Assembly: GCA_017448245.1 (NCBI GenBank)
Contig: JAFSLV010000006.1
Location: 1 to 59,760 of the forward strand
DNA from: Lachnospiraceae bacterium
GTDB lineage: Bacteria > Bacillota > Clostridia > Lachnospirales > Lachnospiraceae
Reading direction: 5' to 3'
Length of the DNA stretch: 59,760 nt
In this document: positions 13,602 to 26,520 of the stretch, in pieces
Layout: each line of letters begins with the position of its first letter
Position numbering within the stretch: position 1 is the first letter of the stretch
Translations under genes and position numbers: made by a program
The notes under the pieces: generated by a model
Told to the model about the DNA's origin: nothing
What the model saw: the letters and a program-made list of their open reading frames with translations, nothing else
The model's database searches: none

Positions 13602-15161
13602 ATGCCCCTGACAAATCGACAAAAAAACATCCTTACGGCATCCGCGACATCACTCTTTTTCTTTCTGATGCACGGATACCGTTTTTTTCATCCGCTGCTT
13701 GCGGGAGATTCGCTCTACATGCTCTATCAGGACGACATCGCCTGGCAGATTTCGCTCGGCCGTTTCGCTCAGCCGCTCTTTCTTTTGCTGCGCGGTTCCT
13801 TCCCCTCTCCGTTTCTGACAAGCCTCCTGTCCGTGTCCGCGGTCGCGGCATCGGCCGTTCTGTGCACGCGATTTTTGTCCCTTGAGGATCCCGTCTCCCT
13901 TGTGATGACGGGGGCCGTGATGAGCTGCAACCTCACGCTCCTTGTTGCGGGGAGCGGTTTTCTGCCGTGGTTTGATCTCTATGCCTTTGCGCTCCTTAGT
14001 GCGGTCGCGGGCACCCTGCTCCTTACGCACAAAAAAAAATCGCATCTTGTGTGCGGCGTCTTGCTGCTCGTCCTTTCCCTGGGGCTCTATCAGGCCTATA
14101 TCTGCGTGGCAACGGGACTCGTGATGCTTACGTTTCTTGCGGATGCCGCGAAAGGAGAAGACATCCGCGCCTTACTCAAAAAACTCTTCCGCACCGTTCT
14201 GCTTTTTTTCTGTGCGGCACTTTTGTATGTCCTTGTGTGGCGCTTCCTGCAGGGTGCGCTGCGGATCGCGACGGCCGAGTCTTACCACGGCCTTTCTTCT
14301 CTCGGTGATTTTTCGGAAACTTCCGTGGCGGAGGCATTATTTGTGACCTACCGGAATGTATTCCGTTATTTCTTTGCACAGACCCCCTTCCTTACACCCG
14401 ACGTATCGGGGCTGAGCCTCGGCATCCTCTGGTCCGTTCTTCTTGCCGCATGTTGCGCACTGATGCTACTGCTGTCGGTTATGTATCTGGCGCAACTCAA
14501 TCGCGCACAAAAGACTGCCCCTCTCTCCCGCATCCTGCAGCTTGTGACAATTCTCCTCTTTCCGCTCGGCATCAACCTCGTCTGTTTCCTTTCGCGCGGC
14601 ATGGAGCACGCGCTGATGATGTACGCTTGCCAGCTCGTCTTTCTTGCCGCAGTCTGCATCAGAGAGCTTGCACTGCCCGGGCGGGATGACACTACGGCAC
14701 CATCCGGTACATCCCTGATCCAAAAGACGCGCCGTCTCCTGCCCCTGCTCCTTGCCGTCATCACGTGGTCGCAGATCGTCTTCGGCAACCAGATCTACTA
14801 CCGCAGGGACCAGACGGAGCGCGCTTCCTTTGCGCTCATGAACCGCATCGTCGACCGCATCGAAGAGACGCCCGGTTACGAACCGGGCACAACGCCCGTC
14901 GCCTTTTGCGGCTCCTTTGCCAAAAATCCCCACACCGCAAGACCCGCCGTGTTTTCGGAAGCGGACGATATCCTGCCGGGACATACGGCCTTCAGCTATC
15001 CCGGAACGGAAGCGACGTATCTTTCCTTTTTTGAAAGCATGGACCTGACCGTCATACGCTTCGACGAAGACAACGGGGCGGTACGCGCGATGCCTCTCTT
15101 TCCCGCGGAGGGCAGTGTTGCCCTCATCGACGGCGTGATCGTGGTCAAAGTATCCGATTGA
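13602..15161 (+). CDS. GtrII-like (glucosyltransferase domain) polytopic membrane protein
   Basis: 519 residues with about ten hydrophobic segments and an early short loop GDSLYMLYQDDIAWQISLGR. This is characteristic of the Glucos_trans_II / GtrII family, in which acidic residues of the first outer loop are thought to act in sugar transfer from a lipid-linked donor. A hydrophilic C-terminal domain of about 120 residues follows the last helix, ending VIVVKVSD. Such proteins glycosylate envelope polymers at the outer membrane face. Acceptor unknown. It sits between a vWFA lipoprotein and an HD-domain protein, each with its own promoter. Confidence 0.8.
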   Translation: MPLTNRQKNILTASATSLFFFLMHGYRFFHPLLAGDSLYMLYQDDIAWQISLGRFAQPLFLLLRGSFPSPFLTSLLSVSAVAASAVLCTRFLSLEDPVSLVMTGAVMSCNLTLLVAGSGFLPWFDLYAFALLSAVAGTLLLTHKKKSHLVCGVLLLVLSLGLYQAYICVATGLVMLTFLADAAKGEDIRALLKKLFRTVLLFFCAALLYVLVWRFLQGALRIATAESYHGLSSLGDFSETSVAEALFVTYRNVFRYFFAQTPFLTPDVSGLSLGILWSVLLAACCALMLLLSVMYLAQLNRAQKTAPLSRILQLVTILLFPLGINLVCFLSRGMEHALMMYACQLVFLAAVCIRELALPGRDDTTAPSGTSLIQKTRRLLPLLLAVITWSQIVFGNQIYYRRDQTERASFALMNRIVDRIEETPGYEPGTTPVAFCGSFAKNPHTARPAVFSEADDILPGHTAFSYPGTEATYLSFFESMDLTVIRFDEDNGAVRAMPLFPAEGSVALIDGVIVVKVSD

Positions 15162-18494: not shown

Positions 18495-18893
18495 TCAACC
18501 CCGCAGCTCCGACACCGCCTCCGCGATCAGCTGCGCCGTCTTCTTTTTTCCGACGCCCACCACATGCGTATTGCAGTTATTGTACGGGATCAGTATGCGC
18601 TTTGCCTGCGATCTGCCGACGGCGACCGCCATCTTTCTGGTGATCTCTCCGCCCATGGCATCGGTGATGCAGATACCGACGGGACCCATGATCACATCGG
18701 CCGACGCACAAGCCACCTTGACGGCGTTTTCGCCGGTGGCCGCCTGATCGGCACCTTCCTTAAACATCGCGGCGGTCGCGGTCGCGTTCGTCCCGACCGC
18801 CGTGATGTCTGCTTCTTTGACCTGTTCTTTGATCGCGCGGATCAGCTGTCTTCCGAGACCGCCGCCCTGCGCGTCAATCACAAGGATCCGCAT
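18495..18893 (-). CDS. DUF3842 family protein
   Basis: 132 residues, full length for the family. It starts with a nucleotide-binding-like glycine pattern, ILVIDAQGGGLGRQL, and contains VGTNATATAAM, DQAATGENAV, GPVGICITDAMGGEIT and an ending PYNNCNTHVVGVG, all conserved in DUF3842. The family has no established function; the Rossmann-like start suggests binding of a nucleotide or phosphate. It begins 19 bases after the PPDK stop with a good AGGAGAAGGA site, so it is likely co-transcribed with PPDK. Confidence 0.88.
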   Translation of the reverse strand: MRILVIDAQGGGLGRQLIRAIKEQVKEADITAVGTNATATAAMFKEGADQAATGENAVKVACASADVIMGPVGICITDAMGGEITRKMAVAVGRSQAKRILIPYNNCNTHVVGVGKKKTAQLIAEAVSELRG

Positions 18894-18912: not shown

Positions 18913-21900
18913 TTATCTCTTTCTTCTGATCGGCTTCCCGGCGGCAGTCTTCTTTGCGGCGGTCACCGTCTTCTTTGCCGCCTTTGCGCTGGTTGCCTTT
19001 TTTGCGAGCTTCCTTGCGCTCCTGACGGCCTTGGCGGTTTCCTTACGCGCCTTGCTCTGTGCGGCCTTAACGGCCTTCTTTGCGGCGCTCGTTTCCTTCT
19101 TTACGATCTTTTTGACCGACTTCTTTGCGGTCGTGACCTTCTTTGCCGCCTTCTTTTCCGCACTCTTTACGTTCTTTGCGACCTTCTTCTCCGCCTTTTT
19201 CACGGTCTTTTTCGCGGCGCTTGCTTTCTTTGCCACGGTCTTTTCCGCCTTCTTTACGGTCTTTTTCACCGCGGCCGCTTTCTTTGCGGCGGGCTTTCTC
19301 CTTGCGCGCGCAGCTTCGATTGCGCTCTGCGCCGCGGCAAGACGCGCGATCGGCACGCGGAAGGGCGAGCAGGACACGTAGTCGAGACCCGTGCGGTCAC
19401 AGAACATAACGGACGAAGGATCGCCGCCGTGCTCGCCGCAGATCCCTAAGTGGATCTGACGGTTTGCCTTTTTGCCCTTTTCGCAGGCCATCGCGACGAG
19501 CTGTCCGACGCCGGTCTGGTCGAGATGCGCAAAAGGATCCGACTCGTAGATGCCGGTCTTGTAGTAGCTGTCAAGGAACTTGCCCGCGTCATCGCGCGAG
19601 AAGCCGAAGGTCATCTGCGTGAGGTCGTTGGTGCCGAAGGAGAAGAAGTCCGCTTCTTTTCCGATCGCATCCGCCGTCAGCGCCGCTCTCGGGATCTCGA
19701 TCATCGTGCCGACGAGATATCTGATGTTGGAGCCCTTTTCCTTCTTGACCTGCTCCGCCGTGCGGACCACGATCTCTTTGACAAACTTAAACTCCTTCAC
19801 CTCGCCGGTCAGAGGGATCATCATTTCGGGCACAATATTGTAGCCCTTGCGCTTTTTGACGTCGATCGCGGCTTCCATGATCGCGCGTGTCTGCATCTCG
19901 GCGATCTCCGGATACGTGACCGCCAGACGGCAGCCGCGGTGACCCATCATCGGATTGAATTCATGCAGCGCGTCGCAGGTCGCCTGTACCTTTTTGACGG
20001 AGAGCTTCATCTCCTTTGCAAGCGCGATGATGTCCTCCTTTTCGGTCGGGACAAATTCGTGCAGCGGCGGATCGAGGAAGCGGATGGTCACGGGACGTGC
20101 GCCCATCGCCTCGTAGATGCCGATAAAGTCGTCTCTCTGGAAGGGAATCAGTTCCTCGAGCGCGGCCTTCCTCTGCTCCTGCGTCGTCGAAAGGATCATC
20201 TTGCGGATCTTGGGGATGCGCTCCGGTTCAAAGAACATGTGCTCCGTGCGGCAAAGGCCGATGCCCTCCGCGCCGAATTTGACCGCCTGCTGCGCATCGA
20301 CAGGCGTATCCGCGTTGGTGCGGACCTTTAAGCGTCTCTTCGCGTCCGCCCACTTCATGATGCGGCCGAAATTCTTGTCGATCGAAGCGTCCACCGTTTT
20401 GACATCGCCCAGATAGATCTTGCCGGTCGAGCCGTCGAGGGAAATATAGTCGCCTTCATGTACCGTGACGCCGCCGAGCGTAAAGGTGCCCTGCGCCTCC
20501 TGGAAGGTGATCTCTCCGCAGCCGGACACACAGCAGGTGCCCATGCCCCTGGCCACGACCGCCGCGTGGCTCGTCATGCCGCCTCTGGCGGTCAAAATCC
20601 CCTGCGATGCATGCATGCCCTCGATATCCTCGGGGCTCGTTTCCTGTCTGACCAAAATGACACGCTCGCCCTTCTTTGCGTGCTCGACCGCGGCATCCGC
20701 CGTGTAATAGACACGGCCGGCGGCGGCACCGGGAGACGCCGGAAGCGCAGAACCGATTTCCTTTGCGGCCTTTAAGGCGGCGGCATCAAAGACGGGATGC
20801 AGGAGCTGATCGAGGGACTTGGGCTCGATGCGCATGACCGCCTCATCCTGCGAGATCATCCTCTCGTCAACCAGGTCACAGGCGATCTGGATCGCCGCCT
20901 GCGCGGTGCGCTTGCCGTTTCTCGTCTGCAGGAAGTAGAGCTTGCCTTCCTGGATCGTGAATTCCATGTCCTGCATATCCTTGTAATGCTTTTCGAGCTT
21001 GTTGGCAAGCGCCATAAACTCTTCATAGCACTTGGGCAGATCCTTCTTTAACTGCGCAATCGGTGCGGGCGTGCGGATACCGGCGACGACGTCCTCGCCC
21101 TGCGCGTTGATCAGATACTCACCGAAGATCCCCTTCTTTCCGGTCGCGGGATCTCTCGTAAAGGCAACACCCGTGCCGCTCGTCATGCCCATATTGCCGA
21201 AGACCATCGTCTGCACGTTGACGGCGGTGCCCCAGTCGGAGGGGATGTCATTCATGCGGCGGTAGTAGATCGCGCGGTCATTGTTCCAGGAACGGAAGAC
21301 GGCCTTGACGGATTCCATGAGCTGGATCTTGGGATCCTGCGGAAACTCGACGCCCATCTCCTTTTTGTAGATGCGCTTGTAGCGGCGGATGACCTCCGCC
21401 ATGTCATCGGCATCGAGATCGAGATCGTATTTGACGCCCTTCTTTTTCTTGATGTCGTCTAAGACCTTTTCAAATTTCTGCTTGTCGATCTCCATGACAA
21501 CATCCGAAAACATCTGGATGAAACGGCGATACGAGTCACGCGCAAAGCGCGGATTTTTGGTCTTTTTCGCAAAGCCCGCACAGGTCATGTCGTTCATGCC
21601 GAGGTTTAAGATCGTGTCCATCATGCCGGGCATCGATGCACGCGCACCCGAGCGGACCGATACGAGAAGGGGATTTTCCGGATCGCCAAAAGAGCGCTCA
21701 TTGACCTTTTCGAGCCATTTGACGGCCTCTAAGATCTGGCGCTCCGTATCCTTGTTGATCGTCTCTCCCTGGTTGTAGTAGTCCGTGCAGGCCTCGGTCG
21801 TGACCGTAAAGCCCTGCGGGATCGGCATTCCGAGCCCCGTCATTTCGGCGAGGTTGGCACCTTTGCCGCCGAGCAGCGCACGCATGTCGGCGTTTCCTTC

Positions 21901-21927
21901 GTGAAACTTGTACACTCGTTTCGCCAT
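18913..21927 (-). CDS. ppdK: Pyruvate, phosphate dikinase with a Lys/Ala-rich histone-like tail
   Basis: The enzyme interconverts pyruvate, ATP and Pi with PEP, AMP and PPi. Residues 1 to about 875 are a complete PPDK: N-terminal ATP-grasp region, phospho-histidine H454 in GGMTSHAAVVARG, TIM-barrel domain with FGTNDLTQMTFGFSRDD, and the catalytic cysteine C830 in LGICGEHGGDP. Members of the family normally end near this point (SPFRVPIARLAAAQ). Here about 127 further residues (878-1004) consist almost only of Lys, Ala, Val, Thr and a few Arg, in AKKTVKKAEKKVAKN-type repeats ending RRKR, like histone H1 or bacterial Hc1-type proteins. The tail is in frame and free of stops. DUF3842 follows in the same operon. 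Confidence 0.95.
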   Translation of the reverse strand: MAKRVYKFHEGNADMRALLGGKGANLAEMTGLGMPIPQGFTVTTEACTDYYNQGETINKDTERQILEAVKWLEKVNERSFGDPENPLLVSVRSGARASMPGMMDTILNLGMNDMTCAGFAKKTKNPRFARDSYRRFIQMFSDVVMEIDKQKFEKVLDDIKKKKGVKYDLDLDADDMAEVIRRYKRIYKKEMGVEFPQDPKIQLMESVKAVFRSWNNDRAIYYRRMNDIPSDWGTAVNVQTMVFGNMGMTSGTGVAFTRDPATGKKGIFGEYLINAQGEDVVAGIRTPAPIAQLKKDLPKCYEEFMALANKLEKHYKDMQDMEFTIQEGKLYFLQTRNGKRTAQAAIQIACDLVDERMISQDEAVMRIEPKSLDQLLHPVFDAAALKAAKEIGSALPASPGAAAGRVYYTADAAVEHAKKGERVILVRQETSPEDIEGMHASQGILTARGGMTSHAAVVARGMGTCCVSGCGEITFQEAQGTFTLGGVTVHEGDYISLDGSTGKIYLGDVKTVDASIDKNFGRIMKWADAKRRLKVRTNADTPVDAQQAVKFGAEGIGLCRTEHMFFEPERIPKIRKMILSTTQEQRKAALEELIPFQRDDFIGIYEAMGARPVTIRFLDPPLHEFVPTEKEDIIALAKEMKLSVKKVQATCDALHEFNPMMGHRGCRLAVTYPEIAEMQTRAIMEAAIDVKKRKGYNIVPEMMIPLTGEVKEFKFVKEIVVRTAEQVKKEKGSNIRYLVGTMIEIPRAALTADAIGKEADFFSFGTNDLTQMTFGFSRDDAGKFLDSYYKTGIYESDPFAHLDQTGVGQLVAMACEKGKKANRQIHLGICGEHGGDPSSVMFCDRTGLDYVSCSPFRVPIARLAAAQSAIEAARARRKPAAKKAAAVKKTVKKAEKTVAKKASAAKKTVKKAEKKVAKNVKSAEKKAAKKVTTAKKSVKKIVKKETSAAKKAVKAAQSKARKETAKAVRSARKLAKKATSAKAAKKTVTAAKKTAAGKPIRRKR
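18916..19296 (-). repeat. Coding region of the PPDK Lys/Ala tail (degenerate short repeats)
   Basis: Imperfect tandem units on the theme GCC/AAG/AAG/ACC-GTC encode A-K-K-T-V-K-K-A-E-K. The codons are strongly biased to AAG and GCC/GCG. The opposite strand is correspondingly rich in CTTCTTTGC motifs. Confidence 0.85.
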
Positions 21928-22024: not shown

Positions 22025-23233
22025 TTACAACAACTCCGAAAGCTTCCTTGAAATCGTATTGCCCCAGAAGATCCCCGCATCGGTCAGCCGATAGCCTCCT
22101 TCCTCCGGCTCAATCAGCCCCTCTTCCAGAAGTGACGCGCGCATCTTTTCGTAGGCCTCCCTGTCCCGGTAGAGCGCTTCGTTGCGCGGCAGGCGGCATG
22201 TCTGCAGATCTCCCTTGAACCGCGTCACCTCGTCATACTCTTTCGCAAAGCGCATGCCCTGGCGCTGATCAAAATCCTCCACGTAGGATGCGTATTCGGA
22301 GACCGCAACCGGCGTCATCAGCGCGACGGAGTCCACGCTTCCTCCCGCCCCCGCGCCGAGCGGCAGCGTATCCGCCGCCCTGTGGCGGTTCATGATGTAT
22401 TTGTACCGGTCCCCCTTCACCATCTTGGTGAGTTCGAGAAATTCATATCCTTCACCGCGCATCTTTTGAGCGATCCGCATGAAAAACCGCTCGTCCCTTT
22501 CCTCGTTCTGCGCCTCCCCGATCGACGCCTCCTTCATGTTGATCAGGGAATAGAGGGAAAAACCGTCGAGGGAAAGCGCGGCGATCCGGTCGAGATCACG
22601 CTCGAGATCTTCGTCGGTCTGTCCCGGATAGTTGTAAATGAGATCCATGCTGACCGTCACGTCCTTATACTGCCTGAGGGCGGCGAGTCTTTTGTAGGCC
22701 GCATCTCCGGTCCCCGTGCGGTTCATGCTTTTTCTTCCCCTGTCGTCAAAGGTCTGAACGCCCACGGAAAAACGGTTGACGCCGGCCGCAACCAGCGCGT
22801 CCGATTTGTCCTGTGTCAGCTCCGTCACTGTCGTTTCGATCGTAAACTCCGCATCCTCCGTGAAATGCAGATGCTCCCTCATCGCGGAAAGAATACTCAC
22901 CAGCTCCTCTGCGGACAGCGTTGTCGGCGTACCGCCCCCGAAATAGACCGCGTCAAAACGCGTATCCCTGATGTAGGGAAGTGACGCGTACTGCGCGATA
23001 TCCCGCACAATCAGCGGTGCAAGCTCCCTGTCGGGTGTCTGCAGGGTACGGCGCATGTTGCAAAAGCTGCAGATCTTGCTGCAATAAGGCACATGCACAT
23101 AGATCGTCGCATTCCCCGGATCGTCAAGGCGTCCCTCAGAAAGCGCTTCCTTTACTCCTGCCACTCCGCGCACATATTTTTTTCCTTCGCTCATCGCGCT
23201 GTGGTGGGTCTTGATGCGCTCCTTAAACATCAT
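22025..23233 (-). CDS. HemN-like radical SAM protein (ChuW/HutW-type candidate)
   Basis: Start at MMFKERIK (23233), with GGAAAGGA six bases upstream; the ATG overlaps the flavodoxin stop. The 402-residue protein has the radical SAM CxxxCxxC at C51, C55 and C58 (VPYCSKICSFCNM), YFGGGTPTTLS, and the HemN-type SVGVQTFDD and MDLIYNYPGQTDEDL blocks, with a winged-helix C-terminal domain (LTDAGIFWGNTISRKL). Because it is encoded with an IsdE-like heme-binding protein, an ABC transporter and a flavodoxin, anaerobic heme opening (ChuW/HutW activity) is more likely than coproporphyrinogen oxidation. That role is inference from context. Confidence 0.85.
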   Translation of the reverse strand: MMFKERIKTHHSAMSEGKKYVRGVAGVKEALSEGRLDDPGNATIYVHVPYCSKICSFCNMRRTLQTPDRELAPLIVRDIAQYASLPYIRDTRFDAVYFGGGTPTTLSAEELVSILSAMREHLHFTEDAEFTIETTVTELTQDKSDALVAAGVNRFSVGVQTFDDRGRKSMNRTGTGDAAYKRLAALRQYKDVTVSMDLIYNYPGQTDEDLERDLDRIAALSLDGFSLYSLINMKEASIGEAQNEERDERFFMRIAQKMRGEGYEFLELTKMVKGDRYKYIMNRHRAADTLPLGAGAGGSVDSVALMTPVAVSEYASYVEDFDQRQGMRFAKEYDEVTRFKGDLQTCRLPRNEALYRDREAYEKMRASLLEEGLIEPEEGGYRLTDAGIFWGNTISRKLSELL

Positions 23234-23738
23234 AGGCAATCCTTTCCGAAAACATCTGCGCCGCACACGCGATGTCTTCCGCCGACGGATGGTTTTCGGA
23301 GATCCGGTAGCGCTTTCTCTTTTCCGGCGTCGGCTTGTGCGGATTGTCGTCCGGCATTTTTTCAAAGACTTTGATCAGTTCCGGATCGATTCTCCCCTGG
23401 CAGTGAAACTTGCCGATCACATGATTTTGTTCTTTGACCAGCGCCTCGCCCGCAAGAATCGCTCCGTATCCGTGCTCCGAATCGGGCCAGAACGCGAGCG
23501 TGCAGAACAGTCCCACCTTCTTTCCGGAGAGTGCGCCAAGATACTCCTTTGCTTCCGCGCAGGGGCCTCCTTTGTCGACCCAGTAGCCCGCAAGGATCAC
23601 GTCATAGTCTTTCGTATCCCGCGCCTCTTCCATCGGCAGGATCGTCTTGTCCGCATCCTGCAGCCCGTCATAAATCCCCTCGGCGAGTTTTTTGGTATTT
23701 CCCGTTTTTGAAGCATATGTGACCAGTACTTTTTTCAT
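23223..23738 (-). CDS. Flavodoxin family protein
   Basis: Start at MKKVLVTY (23738), five bases after AGGAGG. 171 residues. The FMN phosphate loop TYASKTGNTKKLAEGI, the 50s-loop AGYWVDKGGP and the 90s region FCTLAFWPDSEHGYG mark a flavodoxin/BilS-like fold. Members of this subfamily supply single electrons to partner reductases. Its position between the transporter ATPase and the radical SAM enzyme, overlapping the latter by 11 bases, suggests that it is the reductant for heme breakdown. Confidence 0.88.
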   Translation of the reverse strand: MKKVLVTYASKTGNTKKLAEGIYDGLQDADKTILPMEEARDTKDYDVILAGYWVDKGGPCAEAKEYLGALSGKKVGLFCTLAFWPDSEHGYGAILAGEALVKEQNHVIGKFHCQGRIDPELIKVFEKMPDDNPHKPTPEKRKRYRISENHPSAEDIACAAQMFSERIAYDV

Positions 23739-23764
23739 GATTCCTCCTGTGTGGTTGACTGCCC

Positions 23765-24583
23765 TTAGGGACACCGGTTGTCCCCCGGGGGTTCCTTTGT
23801 GTCATCGGTTGCATCCTCCACGATCGGAATGATATACGGACAGTTGTTTTCTCCTGACCAGCAGACCACGGAGCGGATGCCGTAGACCTCTTGCAGTCTC
23901 TCCTTCGTGATACCCTCCTCCACGTCGCCCGCATAGACGATCTCACCTTCGTGCATCATGATCAGACTGTCGGAAAACTGGATCGCATGATTGATATCAT
24001 GCAATACCATCACGATCGTCATGCCGAACTCCCGGTTGAGCCTGCGGATCAAAGACAATACCTCGAGCTGGTAAAAAATATCGAGATAGGTCGTCGGCTC
24101 GTCCAGAAAGAGCGTATTGGTTTTCTGTGCCAGCGCCATCGCGATCCATGCGCGCTGTCTCTCTCCTCCCGAGAGCTGCCCCACGCGCTTGTCCGCCATC
24201 TCTTTGAGATTGGTCACGCCAAGTGCCCAGTCCACCACTTCCTCCGCGTCCTCGTCATGCGCAGAAAACATGGTCTGATGCGGCATCCTGCCAAAGCGCA
24301 CGAGCCGCTCGACGCTGAGATCGTTCGGCGCCGTATTCTGCTGATGCACCATGGCGATCTTTTTGGCGATCTGTCTGGTGCTCATACTGCTCAAATCGGT
24401 TCCCTCGATCAGGATGGAACCGCCCTGCGGCCTGAGCTGCCTGACCAGAAGATTTAAGAGCGTGGACTTGCCGCTGCCGTTCGGACCGAGGATCGAAGTC
24501 ACTCTTCCCAGAAGGATTTTACCGCACAGATGACGGATCAGCGGCCGCTCGTCATAAGAAAAATCCAGATCCTTAATCTCCAT
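23765..24583 (-). CDS. ABC transporter ATP-binding protein (FecE/HmuV-like)
   Basis: 272 residues. Walker A GPNGSGKSTLL, Q-loop near MVHQQNT, signature LSGGERQRAWIAMAL, Walker B TLFLDEPTTYLD and H-loop MVLHDINHA are all intact. It powers import by the FecCD-type permease encoded upstream, with an 11-base gene overlap. The last 25 residues are acidic and extend beyond the usual end. Iron-siderophore, heme and cobalamin transporters share this subunit type. Confidence 0.92.
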   Translation of the reverse strand: MEIKDLDFSYDERPLIRHLCGKILLGRVTSILGPNGSGKSTLLNLLVRQLRPQGGSILIEGTDLSSMSTRQIAKKIAMVHQQNTAPNDLSVERLVRFGRMPHQTMFSAHDEDAEEVVDWALGVTNLKEMADKRVGQLSGGERQRAWIAMALAQKTNTLFLDEPTTYLDIFYQLEVLSLIRRLNREFGMTIVMVLHDINHAIQFSDSLIMMHEGEIVYAGDVEEGITKERLQEVYGIRSVVCWSGENNCPYIIPIVEDATDDTKEPPGDNRCP

Positions 24584-25571
24584 ATCCCGAGCTGTCCTTT
24601 CTGAGCAGATAGAGAAAAAACGGTCCGCCGCTGACCGTCGTAATCACGCCGACCGGAATCTCATAGGGTGATATGATGATACGGCCGACGGTATCCGCGG
24701 CCAAAAGCATCGTCGCGCCGAGGAGTGCGGCAAAGGGCAAAAGCCTGCGGTGCTCCGATCCCATCAGCATCCTCGATATGTGCGGCACGACCAGACCGAT
24801 AAATCCGATCACTCCGACAAAGGAGGTCGAGACTCCCGCCAGAAAAACGGCACCTGCGGAAATGACGACCCGCAGGAGATTGGGATTGTAGCCGAGGCTT
24901 CTCGTATTTTTATCACCGAGTGCGAGGATGTCGCAGCTTCTCGACATCGCAAACGCGAATGCAAGACCGAAAACGGAATACACCGCCATGTAGACCACCT
25001 GCTGCCAGCTCTTTTTCCCGAGCTCCCCGTTCATCCAGGACAGGACGCCCGAGAGCTGTTCGCTGTTGAAGAGATAGATGAGGCTCGTGACGCCGCCGAG
25101 GACCGAGTTGACCGCGACACCCGCGAGCACGATGCGGACGGCGCTGAGGCCGTGCTTCCACGCCAGCGAATAGATCATCAGACAGGCAAGAATCCCGCCG
25201 GCAAACCCGAACAGCGGACGCGAGGCATTGAGCCCGGGCAGATACAGCATGATCGTGATTACGACGACGCTCGCACCGGATGAGATTCCCGTGATGCCGG
25301 GATCCGCCATCGGATTGTGCATGACGCTCTGCAGCAGCACGCCCGAAACCGCGAGATTGGCACCCGTCATGACCGCCATCAGGATCCGCGGGATGCGGAT
25401 ATCCCGGATGATACCGCTCGTTCCGGAAGCGTCTGCGGAAAAAGCGGCCGCAATCTCGCGGTAGGGTACGCGCACGCTGCCCAGTGTGAGCGCAAGAAGC
25501 ATGACGCTAAGAAGCAGTACACCGAGCAGCGTGCAGGCAAAAACAGCAGAAATGCGCCGCCTGTTATTCAT
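24573..25571 (-). CDS. FecCD-family ABC transporter permease
   Basis: 332 residues with about ten membrane helices. Family marks include RIPRILMAVMTGANLAVSGV, QSVMHNPMADPGITGISSGA and GFIGLVVPHISRML. It forms the homodimeric channel of a type II importer for heme, siderophore or cobalamin. It overlaps the binding-protein gene by eight bases and the ATPase gene by eleven, so all three are translationally coupled. Confidence 0.94.
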   Translation of the reverse strand: MNNRRRISAVFACTLLGVLLLSVMLLALTLGSVRVPYREIAAAFSADASGTSGIIRDIRIPRILMAVMTGANLAVSGVLLQSVMHNPMADPGITGISSGASVVVITIMLYLPGLNASRPLFGFAGGILACLMIYSLAWKHGLSAVRIVLAGVAVNSVLGGVTSLIYLFNSEQLSGVLSWMNGELGKKSWQQVVYMAVYSVFGLAFAFAMSRSCDILALGDKNTRSLGYNPNLLRVVISAGAVFLAGVSTSFVGVIGFIGLVVPHISRMLMGSEHRRLLPFAALLGATMLLAADTVGRIIISPYEIPVGVITTVSGGPFFLYLLRKDSSGYGD

Positions 25572-26520
25572 ACAGGATCGCGGCCATTTTTTCCATGGCT
25601 TCCGGCGCTGACAGATTGGCGCTCATGCCAAAGACGCCGGTCTCGAGCGCAACGACCCTGCCGTTTTGGACGGCATCAAAATTTTGCCACGCGGCATTGG
25701 TATCAAACTCCGCCTGCAGCGCCTGCATCGACGCCTCCGGATTGGCATGCGCCATCAGCAAAATGAAATCCGGATTTTTGTCGGCGAGATACTCCATGTC
25801 CACGGGAGAAAAGGGTGCCGGCGCATCGGTGATGACATTGGTCGCGCCCGCACGTTTTGCGATGTCCCCGACATAGGTATTTTCCGAGGCCACCATAAAG
25901 GAATCTCCCGCACCAAAGATGATCAGCACACTCGGGCTGTCCTTGCCGGAAGCAAGATCCTGCACGGCAGCCTCCCTGGTCTCGATATCCGCAATGAGCG
26001 CCTGCGCCTCGTCCTCCACGCCAAAGCGCGCACCGAGCGTCGTGATCGTCTCCTTGAGATCATCGACACCGGACAGCGTGACAAATAACGCCTCTGCGCC
26101 GAGCGCTTCGATCCCGGCGCGCAGATCCTCCTCGAGCGACTGCACCGATACCACCACCGTGGGCTCGAGGGACGCGATGACCTCCATGTCCGGCTCCATC
26201 GGATTGCCGATCCTCGTTGCGTCCGCAACGCTCTCGGGCAGATCGTAGGCGGAGGTCGGCACACCGACCATCGGCACGCCCATTGCATCGAGGATCTCCA
26301 CGATGGCAACGGCACCCGCGATGATTCTTTCATCCGTCACCGCACCCGGTTCCTCCTGCGTGGTCTCTTCCTGTGTCTCCTCCGCGGTTTCCTCAGGCGC
26401 CGCCGCCTCCTGCGTCGTCTCCTGTGTGCTCTGCGCCGCAGGCGCAGACGAAGAACATGCGGCCAGAAGCGCGCATACGCAAAGCACCGCTGCCGCGGCT
26501 TTCCAACTCTTTTTTCTCAT
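25564..26520 (-). CDS. IsdE-like heme/iron substrate-binding lipoprotein
   Basis: 318 residues: lipoprotein signal ending LLAACSSS (lipid-bearing C22), a Glu/Thr/Gln-rich linker to about 60, then a Peripla_BP_2 two-lobe domain. The sequence VGVPTS, then GNPMEPDMEVIASLEPT, and later LLMAHANPEASMQ parallels IsdE, where one Met and one His coordinate heme; M108 and H258 are the candidate ligands here. It should deliver heme or another iron complex to the FecCD permease. First gene of the five-gene operon and preceded by its promoter and a dyad. Confidence 0.88.
   Translation of the reverse strand: MRKKSWKAAAAVLCVCALLAACSSSAPAAQSTQETTQEAAAPEETAEETQEETTQEEPGAVTDERIIAGAVAIVEILDAMGVPMVGVPTSAYDLPESVADATRIGNPMEPDMEVIASLEPTVVVSVQSLEEDLRAGIEALGAEALFVTLSGVDDLKETITTLGARFGVEDEAQALIADIETREAAVQDLASGKDSPSVLIIFGAGDSFMVASENTYVGDIAKRAGATNVITDAPAPFSPVDMEYLADKNPDFILLMAHANPEASMQALQAEFDTNAAWQNFDAVQNGRVVALETGVFGMSANLSAPEAMEKMAAILYE

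Follow-up and report, generated by a model that had tools for sequence, protein, structure and literature searches.

Lysine- and alanine-rich, low-complexity repeats and a high charge characterize the bacterial histone H1-like proteins of the HC2 (PF07382) and hist_H1_lk_Burk (NF038053) models, which are small separate proteins. H1-like domains that are rich in lysine and alanine and appended to another domain have been described in AlgP (+55) and PhaF (+35) (PMC9239181; PMC3574117). AlgP is found at polyphosphate granules, whose normal spacing depends on its C-terminal domain, and the homologous domain of PhaF is believed to anchor PHA granules to the nucleoid (PMC9239181). On its own, the PhaF domain is for the most part a random coil (PMC3574117). 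Both domains feature KPAA-type repeats of 4–5 residues and granule-protein partners. The solved bacterial-type pyruvate, phosphate dikinases (PPDKs), on the other hand, are tail-less enzymes that end at about residue 874.

In the 59,760-nucleotide stretch of DNA analysed here (the window), a PPDK that has the full core in common with TIGR01828 and with the solved enzymes continues to residue 1004, through a chain that displays the Lys/Ala-rich, low-complexity repeats and high charge of the HC2 and NF038053 proteins, and shares the words AAKK, TVAKK and TTAKK with HC2-like proteins. This tail differs from those proteins, which are richer in proline and threonine, in being fused to an enzyme and in matching neither model. 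Its charge is comparable to that of the AlgP and PhaF domains, but its partner is a metabolic enzyme, it contains two prolines in 137 residues, and KPAA tandem repeats are absent. Such a tail, in frame with PPDK at its C-terminus, polycationic and resembling bacterial histone H1-like proteins in type, is present in at least four species of one genus. The initial annotation of the window knew of no description of the fusion, and a literature search at the level of titles likewise found no account of a PPDK tail or of such an extension.

The enzyme and its C-terminal tail

The following features of the window are referred to below.

19309..21927, minus strand: PPDK catalytic core, residues 1-873 (TIGR01828 equivalog over residues 3-870; alignment with PDB PPDKs)
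18916..19308, minus strand: polycationic Lys/Ala tail, residues 874-1004, net charge +48 (composition; tails at the matching place in three relatives)
19172..19288, minus strand: 54-bp direct repeat (18 codons), about 2.2 copies, within the tail (TRF)
19139..19210, minus strand: 33-bp direct repeat (11 codons), about 2.2 copies, within the tail and overlapping the 54-bp repeat (TRF)
18934..19026, minus strand: distal tail block, residues 968-998, common to the relative G1144 (dN/dS 0.06-0.07)
18495..18893, minus strand: next gene, 132 aa, with its own ATG, 19 bp after the PPDK stop and outside the fusion (ORF list)

The PPDK gene (18913-21927, minus strand) is a single intact frame of 1004 amino acids without internal stop. 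It encodes a complete pyruvate, phosphate dikinase, with the NCBIfam model TIGR01828 spanning residues 3-870 at 1413.9 bits (cut-off 843.45 bits), and the alignment with solved PPDKs of 873-874 residues likewise reaches residue 870. H454 and C830, which we take to be the catalytic (phospho)histidine and the C-terminal catalytic cysteine, are invariant across 44 aligned PPDKs. By its full-length TIGR01828 match and conserved His and Cys, the window protein is a PPDK. The initial annotation placed the end of a normal PPDK near residue 875, and most of the PPDKs surveyed end at about residue 874-880.

The tail is placed after the C-terminal PEP-binding domain. Residues 874-1004 (131 residues) comprise 44 Lys, 9 Arg, 35 Ala, 12 Val, 11 Thr, 7 Ser, 5 Glu and no Asp; counted instead from the residue after the RLAAAQ motif, the tail has 137 residues (39% Lys and Arg, 28% Ala, net +47). 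The 127 extra residues first reported are therefore 131 or 137 according to the starting point, with coordinates correct to within about 10-25 bases, and a description as almost only Lys and Ala, apt as to richness in these residues, is slightly strong for a segment in which Lys, Arg and Ala amount to 67%. Lys/Ala-rich, strongly cationic and of low complexity, the tail is as HC2-type sequences are described. Both other reading frames across it contain stops, and we infer that it is made as part of the PPDK protein. That an error of assembly or of reading frame has merged PPDK with another gene lying downstream has a negligible probability: nothing was found in its favour, in-frame tails occur in three further genomes, and the next gene after the stop, presumably of the DUF3842 family, has its own ATG.

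Tailed relatives, other extensions and the ancestry of the enzyme

Those three genomes (G1141, G1144 and G1142) represent three other species of the same genus as the window genome (G000). Their PPDK cores are, respectively, 97.8% (over 765 aligned residues, the start of the G1141 gene being cut by a contig end), 92.1% and 85.9% (over 877 residues each) identical to the window core. After RLAAAQ, the tails measure 137 residues in G000, 101 in G1144, 67 in G1141 and 29 in G1142, with net charges of +47, +36, +26 and +10. All four contain 38-40% Lys and Arg, 27-41% Ala and few acidic residues; composition is thus maintained, and length and sequence change rapidly. Because three relatives have in-frame Lys/Ala tails, the tail is not an assembly error or a chance product, and the single-frame fusion initially reported is confirmed. 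A stop near residue 878, which the initial annotation had named as the sign of a separate downstream gene, does not occur in these three PPDKs, the closest found, though most PPDKs surveyed stop there. The gene that follows PPDK in G1141 and G1144 (loci L310 and L311) resembles, by eye, a membrane protein of the window (13602-15161, plus strand) that lies about 3.7 kb from PPDK on the opposite strand.

A search of 79 genomes of the genus identified 68 with a match to the PPDK C-terminus, and all 68 ends were read: four bear Lys/Ala tails (G000, G1141, G1144 and G1142), 16 have no extension and 48 carry an extension of mixed charge, 67-81 residues long (e.g., KEKLKEAAEKAQVIAKELAETSAEVAKAGLAGLKAGLEEAKKVYNDNRNK in L024), its net charge, calculated in 38 of the 48 cases, lying between -2 and +6. 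An earlier view of the tail as unique to the window genome in its genus was rejected; it rested on partial sampling (60, then 36 other genomes), and the search of all 79 added the three relatives. A search with the window tail alone in a set of 61 genomes, outside which G1141, G1142, G1144 and G439 lie, matched only that tail. Among 80 named contigs chosen by similarity, L055 runs off its contig and L079 is without a PPDK end; the other 78 are readable to the stop and have at most 12 residues after RLAAAQ. Overlapping family-wide (397 genomes, 336 matching) and class-wide (391 genomes, 321 matching) searches added, among the matches listed, only one further Lys/Ala tail, in genome G439 of another genus; part of the tails was read in these searches, and a short Lys/Ala tail on a diverged core may be missed.

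Against eight members of the genus, the GroEL encoded on the window contig shows 85-89% identity, and against 11 genomes of other genera 74-82%, whereas the window PPDK is only 61-66% identical to the enzymes of those eight members and, among the matches listed, up to 77% identical to PPDKs of other genera. In a tree of 131 of 195 distinct cores (all 41 with extensions and 90 of the 154 without, G1141, G1142 and G1144 not being included), the window PPDK falls in a clade of 66, where its nearest group consists of four tail-less PPDKs (0.96), and another clade, of 64, holds the extension-bearing PPDKs of the genus together with that of G439; the two clades are supported at 0.95 and 0.97, and one inner node on the path of the window PPDK at 0.56. 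The PPDK of the window group is thus of different ancestry from that of the rest of the genus, which may have arisen either by replacement or by differential loss.

The PPDK that bears the G439 tail is encoded at a locus with a GC content of 35% and belongs to the other deep clade. From this placement and its lack of specific likeness to H1-like proteins, the G439 tail is probably of separate origin. It weakly resembles the end of the model for another housekeeping enzyme, valine--tRNA ligase (NF011492), a likeness of composition only (21.7 bits over the whole protein, far below the cut-off of 1783 bits), and this model is absent from the matches listed for the window PPDK and its tail.

The mixed-charge, helical extensions form a separate subject. 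They measure about 67-182 residues and are found in many PPDKs of the family and in one of another family (L195); the loci that bear them are as follows.

L006-L014, L016-L021, L024, L026, L028, L029, L129, L130, L145, L195, L196, L205-L209, L212-L216, L218, L226, L234: PPDK with mixed-charge extension

A 55-residue module of the extension at L129 has matches in nine of 11 genomes, with a single match per genome, always at the end of PPDK. Its counterparts in G015 and G053 share 87% and 84% identity with it, yet the PPDK cores of these two genomes are only 67-68% identical to that of L129 and belong to the other deep clade, as if the PPDK end had been swapped. A Pfam scan of three mixed-charge extensions found no family above cut-off in two of them, and the longest (L218) barely passes Cin1_N (28.2 bits, cut-off 27), perhaps by chance. 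Two other genera (L155 in G252 and L197 in G335) have a third type of extension, a short one, in which 35-39 residues follow RLAAAQ and the last part is a helix-like stretch that contains FADDVK. An apparent in-frame insert in the PPDK of L061 was rejected as a run of unread bases.

In G000 the L129 module finds no counterpart at E<=0.1, and the possibility that the Lys/Ala tail is the basic end of a mixed-charge extension was rejected on this ground and because the tail is nearer to H1-like proteins. The same result bears on the proposal that the tail regulates or protects PPDK itself, through surface docking, PPi/ATP binding or a change in oligomer state or stability. A PPDK-specific role is conceivable in that the tail follows the PEP-binding domain and the corresponding position is occupied by helical extensions of other kinds elsewhere in the family, but the module is unmatched in G000 and 154 of the 195 distinct PPDKs have no extension at all, in a non-random sample in which many were chosen for their extensions and loci without a recognizable start or end were dropped; we give this proposal a slim chance.

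Shape of the tail and selection on its sequence

Residues 880-996 of the window tail contain no Gly and no Pro. The tail is clearly periodic in the manner of a helix, peaking at 99 degrees (p 0.001), its hydrophobic residues recur at lag 11 (z 4.0), and its V/I/L residues cluster at 247 degrees, opposite the Lys and Arg residues at 60 degrees. These properties would suit a cationic amphipathic helix that binds an anionic membrane or self-associates, as a hyperbasic counterpart of the mixed-charge extensions, and similar periodicity is seen in the G439 tail (98 degrees) and in the four mixed-charge extensions tested (99 degrees). The non-polar face is, however, mostly Ala and Val, part of the periodicity is produced by the direct repeats of the window tail itself, and the helix-band signal is absent in G1144 (p 0.24) and G1142 (p 0.39) and weak in G1141 (p 0.017). 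An 11-residue helical repeat was accordingly discarded as the defining design of these tails, being strong in the window and in G439 and absent in G1144 and G1142, and because of this pattern the amphipathic helix is not a conserved feature of the lineage. For the window tail such a helix is possible; as an account of what the tails are for, we hold it to be unlikely.

The repeats and lengths of the tails also raise the alternative of a largely neutral low-complexity expansion, in which GCN-AAG repeats near the gene's 3' terminus would have slipped and so generated a tolerated, functionless tail. In its favour are the 33-bp and 54-bp direct repeats, tail lengths that differ greatly even at 98% PPDK identity, and the looser proximal tail. 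Comparable stretches of the tail nevertheless change mainly at synonymous sites. In the distal block, where 29 codons were compared between G000 and G1144, 12 differences are synonymous and four non-synonymous (pS 0.55, pN 0.06), and the dN/dS comparison proposed at the outset as a check on the tail gives 0.063 for this block against 0.072 for the core (last 740 residues) of the same two genes; the proximal tail, compared between G1141 and G1144, is less constrained (0.30). Between two copies of the 54-bp repeat, 6.5 of 13.3 synonymous sites have changed, against 4.5 of 46.7 non-synonymous ones (pS 0.49, pN 0.096; Fisher p 0.009 on rounded counts), and those of the 33-bp repeat show pS 0.57 and pN 0.14. 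These values derive from few sites, and a protein rich in Lys and Ala offers few synonymous choices; small as the counts are, they suggest that purifying selection acts on the tail as a protein sequence. The low dN/dS of the distal block and the pattern between repeat copies, the maintenance of in-frame Lys/Ala composition in four species, and the separate Lys/Ala tail of G439 at a locus of 35% GC all speak against neutral expansion, which we regard as quite unlikely.

Free-standing histone H1-like proteins and the function of the tail

A search of five genomes with the G1144 tail revealed a second Lys/Ala-rich gene in G1144 and a weak match in G1142 (E 0.41). Free-standing H1-like proteins are encoded in all three tailed relatives (241 aa in G1144, 281 aa in G1142 and 239 aa in G1141), and those of G1144 and G1142 consist of KKPAAKK, KKTTAAKK and KKTVAKK repeats.

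L346:2869-3591, plus strand: free-standing HC2-like gene in a relative of the window genome
L347:3099-3815, minus strand: free-standing HC2-like gene in a relative of the window genome
L348:2929-3771, minus strand: free-standing HC2-like gene in a relative of the window genome

All three proteins score above the Pfam HC2 (PF07382) cut-off of 40 bits (84.8 bits for G1142, 82.7 for G1141 and 47.6 for G1144). Those of G1142 and G1144 fall below the NCBIfam cut-offs for H1-like models; for the G1141 protein the scan was with Pfam. They have net charges of +69 to +84, 7-8% Pro and 11-21% Thr. A uppP-like gene with a GIVEGITEWLP motif adjoins the H1-like gene in G1141 and G1142, and many other genomes of the genus have weaker matches to one of the free-standing proteins. 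In G000, no free-standing H1-like gene was found among the 31 of 123 candidates scored, and two weak matches to an H1-like query are, by eye, not H1-like genes.

The initial reading of the tail as histone H1-like stands as a likeness, given that HC2-like proteins with the same words occur in the three relatives, and fails at the level of family models: neither the whole window PPDK nor its tail alone matches Pfam HC2 at E<=1, and NF038053 and the other H1-like models are likewise unmatched. The alignments of the window tail to the three H1-like proteins beat 300 of 300 residue shuffles each, as do those of the G1144 tail; for the G1141 and G1142 tails the likeness is weaker, with 0-10 and 2-3 of 300 shuffles reaching the observed score, and the G439 tail, of similar composition, is not outstanding against shuffles. 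With the Lys and Arg positions of the window tail held, 8, 7 and 0 of 500 shuffles reach the score against the three proteins. When whole K-words are permuted instead, 240, 107 and 52 of 500 do, so that word order adds nothing for the window tail; the equivalent permutations of the G1144 tail give 0 of 500 against its own H1-like protein, a clear result, and 11 of 500 against that of G1142. Judged by these alignments, the tails share the H1-like vocabulary, and only the G1144 tail shares word order as well.

Codon usage carries a further trace. The Ala codon GCA makes up 15 of 35 Ala codons in the window tail versus 9 of 88 in the window core (p 1e-4), and the three H1-like genes use it for 75 of their 167 Ala residues (27/55, 30/60 and 18/52); it is not enriched in the G1141 tail (2/18) and weakly so in that of G1144 (5/29). 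Because all three tailed relatives encode HC2-like proteins of the same short words, the tail was probably captured from a free-standing HC2-like gene of the same lineage, or has exchanged sequence with or been converted by one.

The explanation that we prefer, with confidence somewhat above even, joins three elements: a tail of the H1-like type under selection, its capture from or exchange with an HC2-like gene, and its action as a polycationic tether. By analogy with the described H1-like domains, an electrostatic tether to polyanions, either nucleic acid or polyphosphate, is the most likely function. The tail would be a flexible polycation that is neutralized by the polyanion and may fold on it. 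A chain of +48 on each PPDK subunit should bind DNA, RNA, ribosomes or polyphosphate, and would hold the core on the nucleoid, on ribosomes or RNA, or on polyphosphate, without a role in catalysis; the enzyme would thus be parked much as the H1-like domain of PhaF is believed to attach granules to the nucleoid. Such parking may alter flux, protect the enzyme or benefit the polyanion instead. Several observations count against this explanation, namely the looser proximal tail, an H1 likeness that lies mostly in short words and is weaker for the G1141 and G1142 tails, a GCA signal that is absent in G1141 and weak in G1144, and the lack of a free-standing H1-like gene among the candidates scored in G000. 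Furthermore, the G1142 tail, with its 29 residues and net charge of +10, would make a weak tether.

Across the four genomes, tail length runs inverse to the free-standing H1-like gene: G1142 has the shortest tail and the largest protein, and G000 has the longest tail and no such gene found among the 31 of 123 candidates scored. A bolder proposal, which we deem quite unlikely, is that the lineage is turning PPDK into a nucleoid or polyphosphate protein, the enzyme having taken over the polycationic repeat domain of the lineage's H1-like protein and the fusion substituting in G000 for the free-standing protein. If this were true, the organization of the chromosome or of polyphosphate would be coupled to an enzyme whose substrates and products include PPi, ATP and PEP. 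The tailed PPDKs would be an instance of a histone H1-like domain on an enzyme of central carbon metabolism, present in several species, apparently acquired twice and with a likely donor gene in the lineage. The four orthologues, whose tails measure 29, 67, 101 and 137 residues and whose cores in the relatives are 86-98% identical to that of the window, offer a natural comparison for the effect of tail length and charge on the location of the enzyme.

In the window, the genes directly upstream of PPDK (22025-26520, minus strand) appear by eye to encode a radical-SAM enzyme, a protein like flavodoxin and the components of an ABC transporter that may take up heme or iron; a comparison of four window neighbours with 278 loci yielded only two weak radical-SAM matches. 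Beyond this region, an open frame of 7636 codons (26697-49607, minus strand) possibly encodes a giant surface protein.
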